From NCBI GenBank assembly GCA_020249775.1, contig JADCFA010000016.1, positions 62,001 to 126,000 of the forward strand: a stretch of 64,000 nt of DNA, given 5' to 3'. Shown here one piece after another: positions 46,565 to 53,611 of the stretch. Made by a program: the position numbers and the translations under genes. A model generated the notes under the pieces. That model did not search any database and was not told the DNA's origin. It saw only the letters and a list, made by a program, of their open reading frames with translations. This DNA is from Roseomonas sp. Its GTDB lineage: Bacteria > Pseudomonadota > Alphaproteobacteria > Acetobacterales > Acetobacteraceae. The stretch's first letter is position 1; each line of letters starts with the position of its first letter.

Positions 46565-47233
46565 TCAATCGGCGGCGAGCGCCATGCGGTTGCGGTTCAG
46601 AATACCCATCACATGATCTTCCGCCGCATCCACAACTTTTTCGGTCTGTTCTGGCGTGAAGACATGGCCGGCACCGGCCATGACGCGATAGTCAATGCTG
46701 ACGCCCTTTTGCGTATTCAGCTTTTCCACCAGCTTCTTCACAGATACTTCCGGCACCAATTCATCATCGGCGCCATGCAGGATCAGCCCGCCGCAGGGGC
46801 AAGGGGCCAGAAAGCCGAAATCATAATGCGAAGCGGGCGCGCTGATGGAAACAAAGCCGCCCATTTCCGGCCGGCGCATCAGCACCTGCATGCCGACATA
46901 AGCGCCGAAGGAATAGCCCAACACCCACTGGGAAGACGCGTTGGGGTTGACGGTCTGCAGGAAATCCAGCCCCGCGCAGGCATCAGAGATTTCGCCAATG
47001 CCGCCATCATAGCGGCCCTGGCTGCGCCCCACACCACGCATGTTGAAGCGCAGCACAGAAAAGCCGAGCGCCTGCATGCGCTGATAAAGCGCATGAATAA
47101 CGCGGTTATTCATGGTGCCGCCATGAAGGGGGTGCGGATGCAATAAAAGCGCTGTGGGGGCATTCGGACGCTTGGAATGGTGATAGCGTCCTTCAAGCCG
47201 TCCATCAGGCCCGGCGAACATCACTTCTGGCAT
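46565..47233 (-). CDS. Alpha/beta hydrolase, serine-esterase-like
   Basis: 222 residues from the ATG giving MPEVMFAGPDGR; the longer frame has no family similarity. Features: LLLHPHPLHGGTMNNRV near residues 29-45, FNMRGVGRSQG near 63-73, the nucleophile elbow GYSFGA near 105-110, a catalytic Asp in GADDELVPE near 153-161 and His in AGAGHVFT near 186-193. The fold and length fit the dienelactone-hydrolase/YfhR-like group of short hydrolases. Substrate unknown. It ends at a strong terminator and lies upstream of the iscR-like gene on the other strand. Confidence 0.85.
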   Translation of the reverse strand: MPEVMFAGPDGRLEGRYHHSKRPNAPTALLLHPHPLHGGTMNNRVIHALYQRMQALGFSVLRFNMRGVGRSQGRYDGGIGEISDACAGLDFLQTVNPNASSQWVLGYSFGAYVGMQVLMRRPEMGGFVSISAPASHYDFGFLAPCPCGGLILHGADDELVPEVSVKKLVEKLNTQKGVSIDYRVMAGAGHVFTPEQTEKVVDAAEDHVMGILNRNRMALAAD

Positions 47234-47621
47234 GGTCTTCTTCTGTCCATTCCATTCTTGGCCGATACGGGGCCCGAAACCCACCGCCCATGGGGGATGG
47301 GCGATGCAGAACCCAGCGGCACCGGCGCCGCATTTCCGGGAAACCAAAGCCCACGACCAGGATACGCCGTCATCACTCACTTACCGACCGCGGAAATCTT
47401 GACCGCCAAGATCGGCAAACCTAGCTTTCATTGCCACGGGAGCGCCGCGGTATCCTATCGCCGAGGCGGCGCCAAAGCCGCCACCCCGATGCCTCAGAGG
47501 GGTTTCCCGTCCCTCAGAGGAAACCGCAATATAATGACCAAGACTGGAAATTCCTAATGTTTTCATGCCGGGAGTCGCGATTTTTTTGTCCCCCTCCGCT
47601 TGTGTCAGGATGGGCTGACAG
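47234..47621. other. 388-nt intergenic region before the iscR-like gene
   Basis: No convincing gene was found; short ORFs in both directions lack family features. It holds the divergent start regions of the hydrolase (minus) and iscR-like gene (plus). A TATAAT -10-like box is at 47530-47535, and a perfect 7-bp inverted repeat at 47501-47507 and 47519-47525 is followed closely by that box. Confidence 0.5.
47492..47535 (+). promoter_or_regulatory. Candidate promoter/operator of the iscR-like gene
   Basis: A consensus -10 hexamer TATAAT lies at 47530-47535. The -35 zone (about 47501-47525) holds a perfect inverted repeat GGTTTCC / GGAAACC, and CCTCAGAGG occurs twice at 47492-47500 and 47512-47520. 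No good -35 hexamer was seen, which is usual for activated or repressed promoters. The predicted leader is about 80 nt. It could be an operator for the Rrf2 protein itself, but I could not match the known IscR site consensus by eye. Confidence 0.35.
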
Positions 47622-48083
47622 ATGAGGCTCTCAACCCGTGGTCGCTATGCCGTTATGGCCCTTGCCGAAATGGCCCGGCGAGAGGCAGCGCAGACTGACC
47701 CGCTGGAGGCGCGGCCAGCCTCCATCGCCGATATTGCCGCCGCCCAGCATCTGTCAGCCGCCTATCTGGAACAGCTTTTTGGCCGGCTCCGCCGAGCGGG
47801 GCTGGTGGAATCGGCCCGTGGGCCAGGGGGCGGGTATCGGCTGCTGCCGGCACCGGAACGCATCACCATCGCCGCCATCATAGATGCGGTGGAAGAACCG
47901 ATTTCGGCCACCAGGTGTGAGGAAGGCAACCCTGGCTGCCTGGCGGGCCAGCGCTGCGAAACCCATGATCTTTGGGCAGAATTGGGCGGCCAGATCAGGC
48001 TTTTCCTGGCCGGCGTGACGCTAGCCGATGTGCTGGCCGGGCGCGTTTTGGGCCGCGCCGCCGCCCCCTTGCCCCCCGGCTGA
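47622..48083 (+). CDS. Rrf2/IscR-type iron-sulfur transcription regulator
   Basis: 153 residues. A winged-helix Rrf2 domain (MRLSTRGRYAVMALAEMA start, recognition region about residues 33-75) is followed by the cluster-binding segment C99-x6-C106-x5-C112 and H115 (CEEGNPGC..CETHD), close to the [2Fe-2S] ligands of E. coli IscR (Cys92/98/104, His107). Thus it probably senses cluster status and controls downstream cysteine desulfurase genes. It is followed after 6 nt by the first of these. A TATAAT box and a palindrome lie upstream. Confidence 0.9.
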   Translation: MRLSTRGRYAVMALAEMARREAAQTDPLEARPASIADIAAAQHLSAAYLEQLFGRLRRAGLVESARGPGGGYRLLPAPERITIAAIIDAVEEPISATRCEEGNPGCLAGQRCETHDLWAELGGQIRLFLAGVTLADVLAGRVLGRAAAPLPPG

Positions 48084-48089
48084 GGCGCC

Positions 48090-49178
48090 ATGCCCCGCCT
48101 ATACCTGGACGCCAATGCAACTGAGCCCATGCGCCCGGAAGCCATCGCCGCCATGGCTGAAGCGATGGCTTTGCCGGGCAATCCATCCTCGGTCCATGCC
48201 GAGGGGCGGGCGGCGCGGCGCATTCTGGAAGAAGCGCGGGAGGCGATTGCGGCCCGCTTCGGCGCGCGCGGGCGGGATGTGGTTTTCACCTCCGGCGGGA
48301 CAGAGGCCAATGCCTTGGCCATCCGCGGCCTTGCCGCCGGGCGGCGCGTGCTGGTGGGGGCGACCGAACACCCCGCCGTGCTGGCAGCGACCGGGCCGGA
48401 GGCCGAGATGATCCCGGTGCTGGCTGATGGCACCCTGGACCTTGGCGCGTTGGAAGCGGCGCTGAGCAAGGGCGGCCCGGCCCTGGTTGCGGTCATGGCG
48501 GCCAATAATGAAACCGGCGTGCTGCATCCCGTTGAAGCCATTGCGGCGCTTTGCCAGGCGCATGGCGCGCTGTTGCACCTGGACGCGGTGCAAATGCCGG
48601 GCCGCCTGCCCTTCACGCTCGGCCCTGCCGATTCCATGGCGCTTTCCGCCCATAAGCTCGGCGGACCCAAGGGCGTGGGCGCCTTGTTGCTGCGCCCCGG
48701 TTTGGACCCCACGCCGTTATTGACCGGCGGCGGGCAGGAATCCGGCAGGCGCGGCGGGACCGAAGCCCTGCCCGCCATCGCCGGCTTCGCCGCCGCCATT
48801 GCCTGCCCACGGCCCGAAGGCCTGGCCGCGCTGCGCGATGCGATTGAGGCCGGCGTGAAGGCCCTGGCGCCGGAGGTGATCATCGCAGGCGCCAGCGCAC
48901 CGCGCCTGCCCAATACCACCAGCCTGATCCTGCCCGGTGTCGCGGCAGAGACCCAGGTGATTGCGCTTGATCTGGCGGGGGTTGCGGTATCCGCAGGTGC
49001 CGCCTGTTCATCGGGCAAGGTGCGGCAATCCCATGTGCTGGCGGCGATGGGGTATGGGGCGGAAGCTGCATGCGCCATCCGCGTTTCGCTGCCGTGGAAT
49101 GCGGGGACAGGGACGGTGGCGCAGTTCTTGGACGCTTGGGGCGGGATGCGGGGGAGGCTTTCAAAAGCAGCGCGCTGA
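48090..49178 (+). CDS. Cysteine desulfurase (first copy)
   Basis: 362 residues, PLP enzyme of the NifS/IscS family that removes sulfur from cysteine. PLP lysine lies in ALSAHKLGGPKG and the persulfide cysteine in SAGAACSSGKVRQSHVL. It starts with the standard LYLDANATEPMRPEAIAAM, showing DANATEP instead of the more common DNxATT. At 362 residues it is shorter than IscS, by about 30. It follows the iscR-like gene after 6 nt. A second, more canonical desulfurase is 2.9 kb downstream, across an inserted antisense cassette. Confidence 0.9.
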   Translation: MPRLYLDANATEPMRPEAIAAMAEAMALPGNPSSVHAEGRAARRILEEAREAIAARFGARGRDVVFTSGGTEANALAIRGLAAGRRVLVGATEHPAVLAATGPEAEMIPVLADGTLDLGALEAALSKGGPALVAVMAANNETGVLHPVEAIAALCQAHGALLHLDAVQMPGRLPFTLGPADSMALSAHKLGGPKGVGALLLRPGLDPTPLLTGGGQESGRRGGTEALPAIAGFAAAIACPRPEGLAALRDAIEAGVKALAPEVIIAGASAPRLPNTTSLILPGVAAETQVIALDLAGVAVSAGAACSSGKVRQSHVLAAMGYGAEAACAIRVSLPWNAGTGTVAQFLDAWGGMRGRLSKAAR

Positions 49179-49179
49179 A

Positions 49180-49207
49180 TTGGGGGGCGAGAGAACTCGC
49201 CCCCCAA
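49180..49207. terminator. Perfect stem-loop just after the first desulfurase gene
   Basis: Twelve-base arms TTGGGGGGCGAG (49180-49191) and CTCGCCCCCCAA (49196-49207) with a 4-nt loop, starting 2 nt after the stop codon. No T-tract follows directly; a T7 run occurs about 20 nt further. The remaining sequence to 49433 (about 225 nt) shows no gene. Confidence 0.5.
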
Positions 49208-49433
49208 GCCCCCCCACTCCTTTTTTTGACTTTTGGCGCTGGGGGCTGCGCAGCGCGGCATGCCATTGCGATGCTTTGGGGGCCTCAGGCGCCTTTAGCC
49301 GGCGCGCCAAGCGGTCCAAAAGGTTTCGAGGACGGGCACCAAACAGCACTGGCTTATCCATGGGCGCAAGGGATAGTCGCGCCGGCGGCGACCAGGGAGG
49401 TAAGGAGATAAAGATACACAATGAAGCTCGGTA

Positions 49434-50534
49434 TCAGTCGAGCGTTCTGGCAACACGGAAACCGATGCTGCTACTCCGGCCCACGGGTCGGAGCGTGCCG
49501 CGCTTCCACGAGCGCAGGAACTCCGGAGATTTTGTCCAGGAACCGCCGCGCAGCACACGCTGAGACGGAATAGCATACACCAAGGGACTGGCATCTGTCG
49601 CATACGCGGGATAGTCGCAGTAGGCATCTTCCACCCATTCCGAAACATTGCCATGCATCTCGTGAAGGCCCCAAGGGTTAGCCGGCAAGCTGCCCACTGG
49701 CACGGTGCGGCCACAGAATTCGCCCTGCGCTGCTTTCTCATAGGAGTAACTGCCATTATAATTCGCCTGCTCGGGCAAGATTTTTTTGCCAAAGCTGAAG
49801 GGCGTTATCCTTCCGGCCCGGCAACTATATTCCCACTCGGCCTCACTCGGCAGACGGTAGGTGCCGGGGGGAAGCCCCAGACGCTGGTTCAGCCAGGTGC
49901 AATAGGCCTGGGCGTCGTGCCAGCTGACATTGATGACCGGCCGCTCGTCGCGCCCCCAGCCTGCATCTTTAGGCGGCTCCGTGCCGGAAGGCGGGACGAA
50001 GCCGGCTGCCATCGCCGCATCCCACATCGCGAAGGTCACCGCCGTCCGGCCCAGCGCGAAGGGGCGCGGGACGGTGACACGGCGTTGCGGACGTTCGTTG
50101 GTTTGGCTGCCCTTCTCGGCCTTCGGGGCGCCCATCAGGAACGTCCCGGCGGGGAGCGTGACCATGTCGGGCCAGGCTCGCTCCGGCAGGCCGGGGATGG
50201 GTTCGCGCCAACGCGCCAACGGTTCCAGCGGCGGGCGCAACTGGGACAGGGGCATGTGAAGGTCGGGCGGAAACCGCGTGGTCTCGTCCCAACCCGCATA
50301 TTGAAACATATCGCGCCGCAACCCGCGCGCCTGCGACAAATCCGCACCATGCAGCAGCGTGCGCGGGAAGCGGAAACCTGTCAGATCGTCAGTGCCAAAA
50401 TCCACGCTGCGCAGATCGGCACCGCGCCAGCCAGTTGCAGGGTCAAGGCCGCTGGCGCGCGCCAAGGCCACGAAGCTTTCACTTGGCTCGGCCATAATGC
50501 GCGCAAGGCTTTCACGCGCAGCATCCTTTATCAT
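49434..50534 (-). CDS. Pentapeptide-like + SUMF1/FGE-fold protein lacking catalytic cysteines
   Basis: 366 residues. Residues about 36-75 have pentapeptide-like repeats (GADLRSVDF.., LHGADLSQA). Residues about 122-364 are a formylglycine-generating-enzyme (SUMF1/C-type-lectin) fold: DMVTLPAGTFLMGA, VTFAMWDAAM, PVINVSWHDAQAYCTWLNQ, RLPSEAEWEYSCRAG, NPWGLHEMHGNVSEWVED, and RVLRGGSW...GFRVAR. In true FGE two cysteines follow GGS-(Y/W); here the text reads GGSWTKSPEFL, so they are missing and sulfatase activation is unlikely. Such domains can act as binding modules. ATG overlaps the HTH gene stop by 4 nt. Confidence 0.85.
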   Translation of the reverse strand: MIKDAARESLARIMAEPSESFVALARASGLDPATGWRGADLRSVDFGTDDLTGFRFPRTLLHGADLSQARGLRRDMFQYAGWDETTRFPPDLHMPLSQLRPPLEPLARWREPIPGLPERAWPDMVTLPAGTFLMGAPKAEKGSQTNERPQRRVTVPRPFALGRTAVTFAMWDAAMAAGFVPPSGTEPPKDAGWGRDERPVINVSWHDAQAYCTWLNQRLGLPPGTYRLPSEAEWEYSCRAGRITPFSFGKKILPEQANYNGSYSYEKAAQGEFCGRTVPVGSLPANPWGLHEMHGNVSEWVEDAYCDYPAYATDASPLVYAIPSQRVLRGGSWTKSPEFLRSWKRGTLRPVGRSSSIGFRVARTLD

Positions 50535-51589
50535 GTTTTGTCGTCCTGCTCTGCAACAATTGCACCCGTGGCGAGTTCGGCGTGATCGCCCTCACCCTCA
50601 AACCCAAGCATGAGGAGCGCTTGGGCGATGACGGCATCACGATTGCTGTTGACAGGGCGGCCACCGATCCGCGTGACGGCGATATCCTCTCGTCTGGCAT
50701 AAGCCGAAATCAGCAATTTATCCCCCGGCGCACCCGCTTCCAGTAAAGCCGCTTCAAAGTGATCAAGCGCCCAGGCATTCGCTTTTTGTGGTAAGGTAAC
50801 TTCCCAGCCCCCCGCGTAGGTCACGGTTGGGTTTGCGTTACTTACATTGATACTATTCTTTAAGGCGCTTACCGCTCCCCAGCCGGGCCTGATCCGAACT
50901 TTGGGCAAGCTGACCTCAAAGCGGAGCGGCGCACCGCCTTCCCGGCTCAGACTGATTGTCTGCGACGTGTAGTCAATGGAAAAGCAGAGTTGGTTCGGCA
51001 CATCCTGCGGTGCGTCGTGCAGGATCAGCTGGAACCATTGATCAGGATTTGGTGTCACGGGTTCGCGCCGTTCTACACGGAAGCGCAGCGCTGAAGGCGC
51101 CGGCGCTGAAGGCGCCGGCGCTGGCGCGGTGCCGGCGGGAGGTGCTGGTGCCGGTGCCGGTGGTTGCTGGCCGGCCGAAGAAGCGCCCGGCGCTGTTTGG
51201 CTCCTGGGCTGCTTCTTTGGCCTTTCCGCTTCCGCTGCGCTCACACGTGCACTCTCAGCCTTCTCGACCCAGCTTTCATCAAAGAGCAACTCCTTCTGAC
51301 CAGTCGTTCCACCTTGCGCATTTGCCTTCTTCTCTACTGCCTTCTTCTCTACGGTCCGCAGTTCGTGAATGAAACTAGCCCATCGGTCTCCTTGAGGCAC
51401 ATGCTCGCCGTTCAGCCAGCGCGTGAAAGTTTTCAAATTCATATTGAATTTCTTTGCGAATGCGCTGCGCGGCCGACCGACCATGCTCGTGTGCTGATGT
51501 GCTGCCCAATGCTGCAAAATTTGCTCGAGAACAAGCTGCAAATCCGACTTTGTCGCATTTGTCTTTTTTGTCGCATCTGTCTTGGACAT
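50531..51589 (-). CDS. Helix-turn-helix protein with proline-rich linker and unknown C-terminal domain
   Basis: 352 residues from the ATG giving MSKTDATKK, with GAAAGGA upstream on the coding strand; the longer frame lacks a credible start. Residues about 38-66 look like an XRE-type helix-turn-helix (GRPRSAFAKKFNMNLKTFTRWLNGE), residues 80-125 are charged (VEKKAVEKKA repeat), 127-168 are Pro/Ala-rich low complexity (the DNA has tandem 15-bp duplications here and at 51324-51353), and 169-325 form a beta-rich domain I do not recognise. The G+C seems lower than in neighbours. It is coupled to the FGE-like gene and probably regulates or assists it. Confidence 0.7.
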   Translation of the reverse strand: MSKTDATKKTNATKSDLQLVLEQILQHWAAHQHTSMVGRPRSAFAKKFNMNLKTFTRWLNGEHVPQGDRWASFIHELRTVEKKAVEKKANAQGGTTGQKELLFDESWVEKAESARVSAAEAERPKKQPRSQTAPGASSAGQQPPAPAPAPPAGTAPAPAPSAPAPSALRFRVERREPVTPNPDQWFQLILHDAPQDVPNQLCFSIDYTSQTISLSREGGAPLRFEVSLPKVRIRPGWGAVSALKNSINVSNANPTVTYAGGWEVTLPQKANAWALDHFEAALLEAGAPGDKLLISAYARREDIAVTRIGGRPVNSNRDAVIAQALLMLGFEGEGDHAELATGAIVAEQDDKT

Positions 51590-51697
51590 AAAAATCCTTT
51601 CGAGACAAACCAGACATTCTCGCCGACTTCGCTTGAAATCCTGCTCGCCGAAACGCTTAGCTTCCCCCGTGGCAACAAACCGAGGAGGACCACGAAA

Positions 51698-51946
51698 ATG
51701 ACCGGTCCACTGGAAACCGTGATTCGGAATCATAACGTCTGGTGCTGCCTATGTCATGGCCTGCTTGCGGGCTTCAAGCTGGCCATTGGCTCACTCGCAG
51801 AGGCGGCGGCGTATGGGGTCATCACCGCGATTCATGCCCTTAGCGCCCGGGATGAGTTTCGGCGCAAGCCCCCACATGGCCCTGGTGGCGCCGGAGGAGA
51901 CGGCGTCCGGGAGGAGTTTCGGCGCAAGCCCCCGCATGGGCAGTGA
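51698..51946 (+). CDS. Small hypothetical protein, divergent from the HTH gene
   Basis: 82 residues; ATG preceded by GAGGAGG at 51681-51687, a strong ribosome site but with 10-nt spacing. Residues 1-49 include a possible amphipathic/hydrophobic stretch (CHGLLAGFKLAIGSLAEAAAYGVITAIHAL), then a duplicated DEFRRKPPHG / EEFRRKPPHG decapeptide, with 20-residue period, caused by a 60-nt DNA duplication. No family recognised. The duplicated DNA could alternatively be a non-coding repeat, so coding status is uncertain. Confidence 0.4.
   Translation: MTGPLETVIRNHNVWCCLCHGLLAGFKLAIGSLAEAAAYGVITAIHALSARDEFRRKPPHGPGGAGGDGVREEFRRKPPHGQ
51845..51939. repeat. Two direct copies of a 35-bp sequence, 60-nt period
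   Basis: The units at 51845-51879 and 51905-51939 share GAGTTTCGGCGCAAGCCCCC with only three differences over 35 bp. They lie within the 3' part of the small ORF. Such units may be part of a dispersed repeat family, but only this pair was seen in the window. Confidence 0.7.
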
Positions 51947-52018
51947 TACCGGGCGGCAAAGGGCGGATCGTTTCCGTGGCGCGCGTTTGTGCCCCGCTCG
52001 CCACGCTTGCCATCATCA

Positions 52019-52041
52019 TCACCCGCGCCAAGCGCGGGTGA
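52019..52041. terminator. Stem-loop ahead of iscS
   Basis: Perfect 9-bp arms TCACCCGCG (52019-52027) and CGCGGGTGA (52033-52041) with a 5-nt loop, about 50 nt before the iscS start. It may act as the end of the upstream transcript, a leader structure or an mRNA processing site. The rest of 51947-52091 shows nothing else. Confidence 0.4.
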
Positions 52042-52091
52042 CCGCCCCAATCCCCCTAGCCCCACACCCCATTCCGCCCCATCTTCCCCCC

Positions 52092-53279
52092 ATGTCGTTC
52101 CCGAACCAACCCATCTACCTGGACAACCACGCCACCACGCCGGTGGACCCGCGCGTGCTCCAGGCCATGCGCCCCTTTTGGGAAGCGCAATTCGCCAATC
52201 CCGCCAGCGCCGAACACGTCATGGGCCGCGCCGCCGCCGAAGCGGTGGAAGCCGCGCGAGACTACATCGCCGAATTGATCGGCGCCTCGGCGGCTGAAAT
52301 CATTCTGACCTCCGGCGCGACGGAAGCGAATAACCTCGCCATCAAGGGTGCCGCGCGCTTTGCCGCCAGCCAGGGCGATCCGCGCCGGCGCATCATCACG
52401 GTCGCGACCGAACATAAATGTGTGCTGGAATCCGTGCGTGACCTGGCGCAGGAGGGGTTTGAGCCCGTCATCCTGCCGGTCGGCGCGGATGGGCTGCTGG
52501 ATCCGGAAGTGCTGCGCGCCGCCTGTGATGAAAGCACCCTGCTGGTGTCCATCATGGCGGTGAATAATGAAATCGGCGTCATTCAAGACCTACCCACGCT
52601 GGGCGCCATTGTGAAGGAAGCCGGCGCCGCCTTTCATACCGATGCCGCGCAGGCAGCCGGGCGCATTCCGCTTGATGTCGGGGAAATCCAGGCTGATCTG
52701 ATGTCGCTTTCGGGCCATAAGGTCTATGGCCCGCGCGGCATTGGCGCGCTTTATGTCCGCCGCCGGCCACGCATGCGCCTCGCCCCCCTGTTTTCTGGTG
52801 GGGGGCAGGAAAGGGGCTTGCGGTCCGGCACGCTGCCCGCGCCCTTGGTGGTGGGTTTTGGGGAAGCCTGCCGGATCGCCGCCATTGAAGGGCTGCTCGA
52901 TTCCGGGCGCATCGCCGGCCAGCGCGATATTTTCCTGGATAAGCTCCGTGCCGAAATCCCGGGCCTGGTGGTCAATGCCGAAGCCGCGCCCAGGGTTTCG
53001 GGCAATCTGAACCTGACCTTCCCCGGCGGCGTCTCCGCCCAGGCCATCATGGAAGGCGCGCCGCTTGTCTGTGTTTCCACGGGTTCGGCCTGTTCCTCGG
53101 CGGAAATCGAGCCTTCTTACGTGCTGCAAGCCATAGGGCTTGAACCCGAAGCCGCCCGGGCCACCTTGCGGATTGGGATGGGACGCTTTACCTCGCCCGC
53201 CGATGCGGAACTGGCCGCGGCAAGCCTTGCCGCTTCCTGGCACCGCGCAGCCTCCGCAACAGACAAGGCAAGTGATTAG
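52092..53279 (+). CDS. Cysteine desulfurase IscS-like (second copy)
   Basis: 395 residues from the ATG giving [20 protein letters not shown]; a longer frame exists but overlaps the small ORF region. PLP lysine in [12 protein letters not shown] and the catalytic cysteine in [17 protein letters not shown] are plain; [14 protein letters not shown] and [17 protein letters not shown] blocks also match. It mobilises cysteine sulfur for Fe-S assembly and tRNA thiolation. A ferredoxin gene follows after 2 nt and mnmA two genes later, both users of its product. The iscU/iscA/hsc genes are not in the window. Confidence 0.94.
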
Positions 53280-53281
53280 CC

Positions 53282-53611
53282 ATGCCGAAAATGGTATTCA
53301 TCGAACGCGACGGAACGCAAAAGGAAGTGGAAGCCCCGCTTGGCCTTTCCGTGCTGGAAATCGCGCATCGCAATAGCGTTGACATTGAAGGCGCCTGCGA
53401 AGGCTCGCTGGCGTGCTCCACCTGCCATGTGATTGTGGACCCTTCCTGGTTCGGCAAGCTGGCCAAGCCGACCGAGGATGAGGAAGATATGCTCGATCTT
53501 GCCTTTGACTTGCAGGAAACCAGCCGGCTTGGCTGCCAATTGATCATGACGGATGCGCTGGATGGCCTGGTGGTGAAGCTGCCCGCCGGGTCGCGCAACG
53601 CGGGCGGCTGA
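53282..53611 (+). CDS. [2Fe-2S] ferredoxin, Isc type
   Basis: 109 residues. Cluster cysteines are C39, C45, C48 ([12 protein letters not shown]) and C85 (LGCQL), the adrenodoxin/Fdx pattern. It probably donates electrons for cluster assembly by the adjacent IscS-like enzyme; P450 support is another possibility. The gene starts 2 nt after iscS. Tyr/Trp pattern DPSWFGKL and [17 protein letters not shown] is typical. Confidence 0.95.

Follow-up and report, generated by a model that had tools for sequence, protein, structure and literature searches.

The window, a 64,000-nucleotide stretch of Roseomonas sp. DNA (contig JADCFA010000016.1), contains a cassette located between a first cysteine desulfurase gene and iscS. 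A first-pass annotation of this DNA described an antisense HTH and FGE-like gene pair between the two desulfurase genes; this cassette is real, its two antisense genes are coupled, and a small gene diverges from them. The cassette and its parts are as follows.

49236..52055 (approximate): cassette, defined as the insert relative to the empty site of genome G022 (locus L050), which matches the window up to 49235 and again from 52056 with 90% identity
49434..50534, minus strand: gene for a 366-aa protein with a pentapeptide-like N-terminus and an FGE fold; ATGA overlap with the HTH gene
49446..49544, minus strand: C-terminal part of the FGE domain (residues 331-363), which is hypervariable and whose place matches the variable region of the targets of diversity-generating retroelements (DGRs)
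50220..50237, minus strand: RPPLEP linker (residues 100-105), the FGE/WD40 switch point, placed from the blastn ends of common DNA
50531..51589, minus strand: gene for a 352-aa protein composed of HTH-A, an Ala/Pro linker and a C-terminal domain
50534..51091, minus strand: C-terminal domain of the HTH-A protein (residues 167-352), with 28 known proteins and detected intragenic recombination
51194..51553, minus strand: HTH-like N-terminal region (residues 13-132), with XRE/HigA-type fold neighbours
51590..51697: divergent region of 108 bp between HTH-A and the small gene, aligned in five loci
51698..51946, plus strand: small divergent gene encoding 82 aa, with a conserved WCCxCH and a hydrophobic stretch

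The comparison set comprises 35 genomes of the genus Roseomonas (the window's own genome, G000, and 34 others), with one genome per species. These divide into 16 close genomes, G033, 16 more distant genomes, and two (G017 and G027) in which iscS could not be placed. The close genomes were read upstream of iscS, as far as a nearby contig end where one intervened. In the architectures that follow, FGE, WD40, and TIR are Pfam matches, while the other module names are our labels; HTH-C and the descriptions "transmembrane-looking" and "helical" for modules of relatives come from reading the sequences and are backed by no family or model.

A module cassette is found upstream of iscS in seven of the 16 close genomes (G000, G006, G007, G014, G019, G031, and G034), and G033 is an eighth carrier. 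The combinations of front (HTH-like or TIR), middle, and back (FGE or WD40) modules differ between these relatives at one left junction. G000 and G033 encode HTH-A with its C-terminal domain in one gene, followed by the pentapeptide and FGE gene, while in G034 the same HTH-A gene precedes a pentapeptide joined to WD40. G019 carries HTH-A, a middle module (M1), and WD40 as a single chain, and G006 and G014 encode the front HTH-C, M1, and FGE, also as a single chain. In G031 a TIR gene is followed by a second middle module (M2) fused to FGE, and in G007 the same TIR gene is followed by M2 and WD40. FGE and WD40 alternate behind three different preceding modules, each time at the same RP(P/S)LEP linker (RPSLEP in G033). 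Searches of the middle modules returned no family above cut-off.

The DNA shared by these alleles ends at or near the joints. The pentapeptide regions of G000 and G034 are 90.8% identical over the first 315 nt, after which there is no match of at least 80 nt. The TIR gene and M2 of G031 and G007 are 92.6% identical over 1398 nt, ending near the linker, and M1 of G014 and G019 is 94.4% identical over 985 nt, likewise ending near the linker, with fronts that differ too. HTH-A of G000 and G019 is 87.9% identical over 388 nt before the chains diverge. Reading frames continue through the exchanged joints, and close relatives have interchangeable parts on a conserved layout. The core iscS-mnmA DNA of ten genomes is 88.6-92.9% identical. 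Two pairs have modules more alike than this core (G007/G031, 92.6% versus 89.5%; G014/G019, 94.4% versus 89.2%), in agreement with modules having been transferred or recombined.

The first-pass annotation took the insert for an acquired accessory module, possibly a conflict system. This is borne out in part: there are relatives lacking the cassette, as detailed below, and the HTH and FGE genes do co-occur elsewhere, in G033 and on contig L081. However, they do not form a fixed pair, as G034 has the same HTH gene and pentapeptide with WD40, and in G019 the HTH front is fused to another module.

The FGE protein has the FGE-sulfatase fold but lacks the catalytic cysteine pair of the active enzyme (Cys336/Cys341 in human SUMF1/FGE), with "ggswtkspefl" aligned against "ggsymchrsyc". 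The listed structures matching the domain include PvdO and, as the second-best match, TvpA, a DGR variable protein. Variation is concentrated in residues 331-363, where entropy is 2.04 versus 1.37 bits (110 FGE domains) and pN is 0.38-0.54 versus 0.11-0.18 in 14 of 15 pairs. In public relatives (the best 120 listed), the fusion partners of this domain include caspase, TIR, cold-shock, and other fronts. Within the genus, a full FGE domain with at least 70% identity is present in six of the 35 genomes, and any match at E<=1e-40 in ten.

Several other FGE-type genes were seen. The cold-shock domain occurs in P0050, P0054, P0064, and P0118, following the FGE domain in P0050, and is possibly a further output module. 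The window's own genome has a second FGE-type gene (G000:C5:57278-57958) 49% identical to that of the window, and six other genomes of the genus have matches of 48-55%. A phage search with the FGE protein found only FGE-domain relatives, the best having 44% identity among the ten matches listed. A protein of this type, 44% identical to the window's FGE domain and annotated as "kinase", is encoded by Microcystis phage LMM01 (NC_008562.1:41691-42419). According to PMC8477515, Roseomonas was found in 70.64% of single Microcystis colonies. Five FGE carriers (G006, G014, G026, G031, and G033) may derive from that study, and hence from freshwater, as their isolate names bear A-numbers resembling its species labels.

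No family of Pfam, PADLOC, or NCBIfam matches the 352-aa HTH-A protein, and the closest fold neighbours of its HTH region include HigA structures. No fold could be assigned to the C-terminal domain, for which a profile search against solved structures yielded three matches (best E=0.18), and the model of the protein has pLDDT <50 across residues 125-352. A search limited to this C-terminal region returned the same 28 proteins only, and a plasmid search with the whole protein found no relative. Within the family, six listed pairs have fronts just 25-28% identical, and yet they are 100% identical over windows of 60 aa in the C-terminal part. A PHI-type permutation test gave 0.347 versus 0.487 +/- 0.019, with none of 1000 permutations as low (78 informative columns). 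It was run with our own script on gap-free columns, with neighbours within 8 informative sites, and on 24 of the 28 sequences, leaving out the fragmentary P0013, P0015, P0017, and P0028.

The small gene lies beside HTH-A in all five loci with this front (G000, G033, G019, G034, and L081) and encodes 61-82 aa. The motif HNxWCCxCHGxLAGFKLAIGSLAEA is conserved, with the third-last to last letters varying in one. The gene is under purifying selection (dN/dS of 0.06-0.45 across nine pairs, with no difference between G000 and G033 over the 55 codons compared), and its product has no Pfam or NCBIfam match. There is no room for it in G006, G007, G014, or G031, where the front gene is only 97-164 nt from iscS. 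At 51743-51757 the C-C-L-C-H of the small protein fits the CxxCH pattern, which would suggest haem or metal binding.

The genes and sites flanking the cassette in the window are listed here.

47622..48083, plus strand: Rrf2-family (iscR-like) regulator gene (Pfam Rrf2, E=2e-34)
48090..49178, plus strand: first cysteine desulfurase gene (Pfam Aminotran_5), left neighbour of the cassette and, in empty-site genomes, of iscS
49182..49205, plus strand: perfect hairpin with a T run after it, interpreted as the terminator of the desulfurase gene and as lying outside the cassette
52019..52041: palindrome, found in all five HTH-A loci aligned
52056..52091, plus strand: conserved iscS leader, the right junction of the cassette
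52092..53279, plus strand: iscS, right neighbour in seven of the eight carriers

Two close genomes, G002 and G022 (L049 and L050), have empty sites in which the rrf2, desulfurase, and iscS genes are kept adjacent, with approximately 130 bp from desulfurase to iscS in G022. The remaining seven (G008, G012, G023, G024, G025, G026, and G029) have other genes or a contig end upstream of iscS. In the 16 distant genomes the desulfurase-iscS gap is 27-407 bp (eight genomes), approximately 0.9 kb (two), or 2.7-6.9 kb (six), and the fetched regions contain no HTH or FGE match at E<=1e-8. The empty site anticipated for an acquired module thus exists in relatives. The gaps of distant genomes hold various other genes: an MmeI-like type IIG restriction-methylation gene in G030 (L165:5041-6744; 568 aa, model positions 1-573 of 912), a TPR protein in G009 (L162:4027-6504; 826 aa) with a trypsin-like match just under the Pfam cut-off, and an IS1595 transposase in the insert of G013.

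Two hairpins had been proposed to bound the cassette. The left one, near 49180, is read as the desulfurase's own terminator rather than a boundary because it falls inside the part shared with the empty site of G022; it has a single copy in G000 (allowing at most one mismatch), and seven of the eight carriers have it at their left junction. The right palindrome recurs in the five HTH-A loci. The lower G+C attributed to the cassette is confined to the HTH gene and its leader, the insert overall being within the normal range. An Rfam search of 47000-53500 gave no match; promoter-like sites number 2 versus 0.7 +/- 0.9 in shuffles, and terminator-like sites 3 versus 3.4.

The left flank, composed of the desulfurase end and its terminator, is common to all eight carriers, with the contig ending inside it in G031. 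In G000 the remainder of the desulfurase gene adjoins it, and the split desulfurase/iscS gene run described in the first-pass annotation was seen in this genome only. In six carriers, however, the flank is instead joined to a gene for an iron-binding protein (G006, G014, G019, G033, and G034, and likewise G007, as judged from two contig ends). Because all carriers have the same left flank yet different joins beyond it, the insertion point seems older than the later rearrangement. We considered an inversion exchanging desulfurase|iscS with iron-binding-protein|flhF through cassettes at both sites. In its simple form this was dropped: it predicted a cassette or flhF beside the desulfurase in relatives, and no cassette module was found there in the 15 fetched regions, two of which (G006 and G012) end soon after the desulfurase gene. 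The flhF probe used for this idea (49 aa) is too short for a fair test.

Based on these observations, we read the cassette as one of several alleles of a modular locus at one address and propose that it is likely a sensor-effector conflict (anti-invader) system, an explanation to which we assign a probability of roughly 0.6. Following the sensor view of PMC10907252, in which C-terminal CLec/FGE domains are proposed as invasion sensors, we take FGE and WD40 as the heads and HTH, TIR, and caspase as the outputs. FGE or WD40 would then sense an invader or non-self molecule, with the middle module as a relay and the front as the output. In the window's allele, the HTH-A protein may repress the divergent promoter of the small gene; the coupled FGE partner would report an invader, and binding by FGE would alter the HTH-A protein, releasing the promoter and turning on the 82-aa protein, a putative damaging or arresting output that would harm or stall the cell. 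New sensors would be supplied by recombination at the common linkers and not by a retroelement. More tentatively, and with the odds somewhat against it, the locus could be an allelic receptor locus of bacteria whose front, relay, and sensor cassettes recombine from species to species at fixed linkers, with FGE and WD40 as interchangeable recognition heads and without a retroelement. In the window's allele, a lectin-like FGE head would then gate an HTH switch that controls a new effector gene of 60-80 aa.

A number of points weigh against the proposed conflict system. The HTH gene of G034 is frame-broken, and this allele may be dead. In some pairs the modules have diverged further than the core, so the comparison does not support transfer for every pair: in G000/G033 the HTH gene is 87.3% and the FGE gene 82.9% identical, versus 92.5% for the core, and the corresponding values are 83.4% versus 88.9% in G006/G014 and 89.5% versus 92.4% in G006/G019. 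For the HTH cluster and the FGE cluster alike, 14 contigs are listed, suggesting that the allele is stable in the window's species. The address is not absolute either, as the cassette of G033 has on its right a gene that we take to be flhF from its N-terminus, with the DNA upstream of its iscS lying beyond the contig end, and the FGE gene of G026 is on another contig. Searches of the HTH-A/FGE pair revealed no NTPase, kinase, or nuclease domain, and PADLOC recognised neither protein. HTH-A may be a plain regulator, and FGE-fold domains have many roles; Kaur et al. 2020 (PMC7159879), on FGS/CLec-containing NTP-dependent conflict systems, class the FGE-type (FGS) domain with predicted effectors rather than with sensors.

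A different account would make the cassette a regulatory or toxin-antitoxin-like unit, with HTH-A repressing the small gene in the manner of HigA and the FGE protein playing an accessory part that involves no sensing. The HigA structures among the closest HTH neighbours agree with this, as does the tie of a purifying-selected small gene to HTH-A in all five loci. However, HTH-A also occurs in one chain with a middle module and WD40, the middle and back modules occur with other fronts where the short distance to iscS excludes the small gene, and the small protein matches no known family, including the RelE/HigB toxins; we consider such a unit unlikely. It is still less probable that the iscS leader is a site of frequent rearrangement that collects unrelated genes, its modules being common but without joint function. 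Other genes or contig ends at seven of the 16 close loci, the iscS and mnmA fragments nearby, and the large inserts in six of the 16 distant genomes, one with a transposase, would all be expected of such a site, but the frames that run through exchanged joints, the constant linker, and the selection on the small gene would not. Nor does a housekeeping role in support of the isc operon, such as the modification or sensing of an iron-sulphur or sulphur-handling protein, appear any more probable. The cassette does adjoin iscS in seven carriers, and FGE-fold proteins include enzymes of sulphur chemistry such as EgtB; on the other side are the restriction of the full FGE domain to few genomes of the genus, the opposite strand, the other genes at the same place in relatives, the missing catalytic cysteines, and the position beside flhF in G033.

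The least probable alternative is that the FGE gene is the target of a DGR acting in trans, as might be suggested by its FGE/C-type-lectin fold, with TvpA as the second structure match, and by the hypervariability of residues 331-363 at the place of a DGR variable region. The single reverse transcriptase match of the window's own genome is nearest to retron St85 (below the family cut-off), and four carriers (G006, G007, G014, and G034) have no reverse transcriptase match in the search of the 35 genomes, which include drafts; the carriers G019, G031, and G033 do have matches. No template-like match was found in loci L001-L008, the only ones compared, where the FGE gene matched, besides itself, only the second FGE gene of the genome and pieces of chance length. 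The third base is changed in 188 of 387 altered codons and the same in 199, which appears unlike adenine-directed change. A DGR as the main cause of FGE variation was therefore rejected on the template comparison, the reverse-transcriptase search, and the codon pattern.

The proposed sensor-effector locus resembles several known systems. As described in PMC7159879, the FGS/CLec systems likewise place other domains always N-terminal of the FGE-type domain, and share TIR, caspase, HTH, pentapeptide, and beta-propeller domains and strong architectural variability; unlike in those systems, the variation seen here is module exchange at one locus. No vWA, MoxR, or VMAP domain is present in the window's pair or among the matches listed for seven carrier proteins. 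DGR-diversified antigen sensors (PMC10907252 and PMC7517822) are alike in fold, variable stretch, and the layout of a front with a lectin-type domain, as well as in a WD40 in a neighbouring peptidase gene, but differ in that no DGR reverse transcriptase was found in four carriers here and codon changes do not appear adenine-directed. According to PMC3501461, the five domains most often joined to the prokaryotic metacaspase front include WD40 and FGE, with pentapeptide and transmembrane variants noted; that work is a census of proteins such as metacaspase-FGE and metacaspase-NACHT-WD40, whereas at the present locus FGE and WD40 take turns behind a shared preceding module at one chromosomal position. 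The TIR gene of G031 matches ThsB of Thoeris (PADLOC, 1e-29), and G007 has the same gene (92.6% DNA identity); however, the neighbouring protein in G031 matches no PADLOC model, no ThsA was recognised, and the window's allele lacks TIR. Fungal NOD-like receptor loci (PMC12222747 and PMC4986451) provide an analogy of logic, with variable recognition parts in non-self recognition genes, but there is no family relation and no NTPase core was recognised here. The window's pair has no Pfam match to a NACHT/STAND NTPase and the middle modules have no family above cut-off, though a very diverged domain could escape such searches.

Exchangeable parts of conflict systems are already known, the exchange being usually deduced from distant comparisons. 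Here, in three separate cases, close relatives whose neighbouring genes are approximately 89-93% identical end a shared preceding module in either FGE or WD40 at a common junction, which makes renewal of recognition without a retroelement directly testable. The locus also includes a small unstudied gene, possibly the output of the HTH-type front. The kind of system is known; a literature search of titles and abstract starts, within the library and terms covered, found no report of FGE/WD40 exchange at one locus, with the two heads taking turns behind shared preceding modules and no retroelement involved.

Several minor observations concern the surrounding DNA. An iscS 5' fragment (90% identical, 77 codons) lies beside the iron-binding-protein gene in G026 (L057:4636-4866), and a contig of G031 ends in the same iscS start (L193:2530-2609); both are possibly scars of rearrangement at the iscS leader. 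Partial mnmA-like matches lie near intact mnmA in G014 (L055:13770-14213) and G007 (L059:1897-2353). The retron-St85-like reverse transcriptase gene of the window's genome is located on contig C16 (L006:9384-10346, minus strand; NCBIfam E=2.4e-60, below cut-off) among unknown neighbours, and this locus is possibly a separate defence island. Contig JAJTGP010000099.1 (L081) is labelled Hyphomonadaceae, yet both the cassette on it and the flank to the right align with the flank on the flhF side in G033, and it is probably a wrongly binned Roseomonas-like contig.

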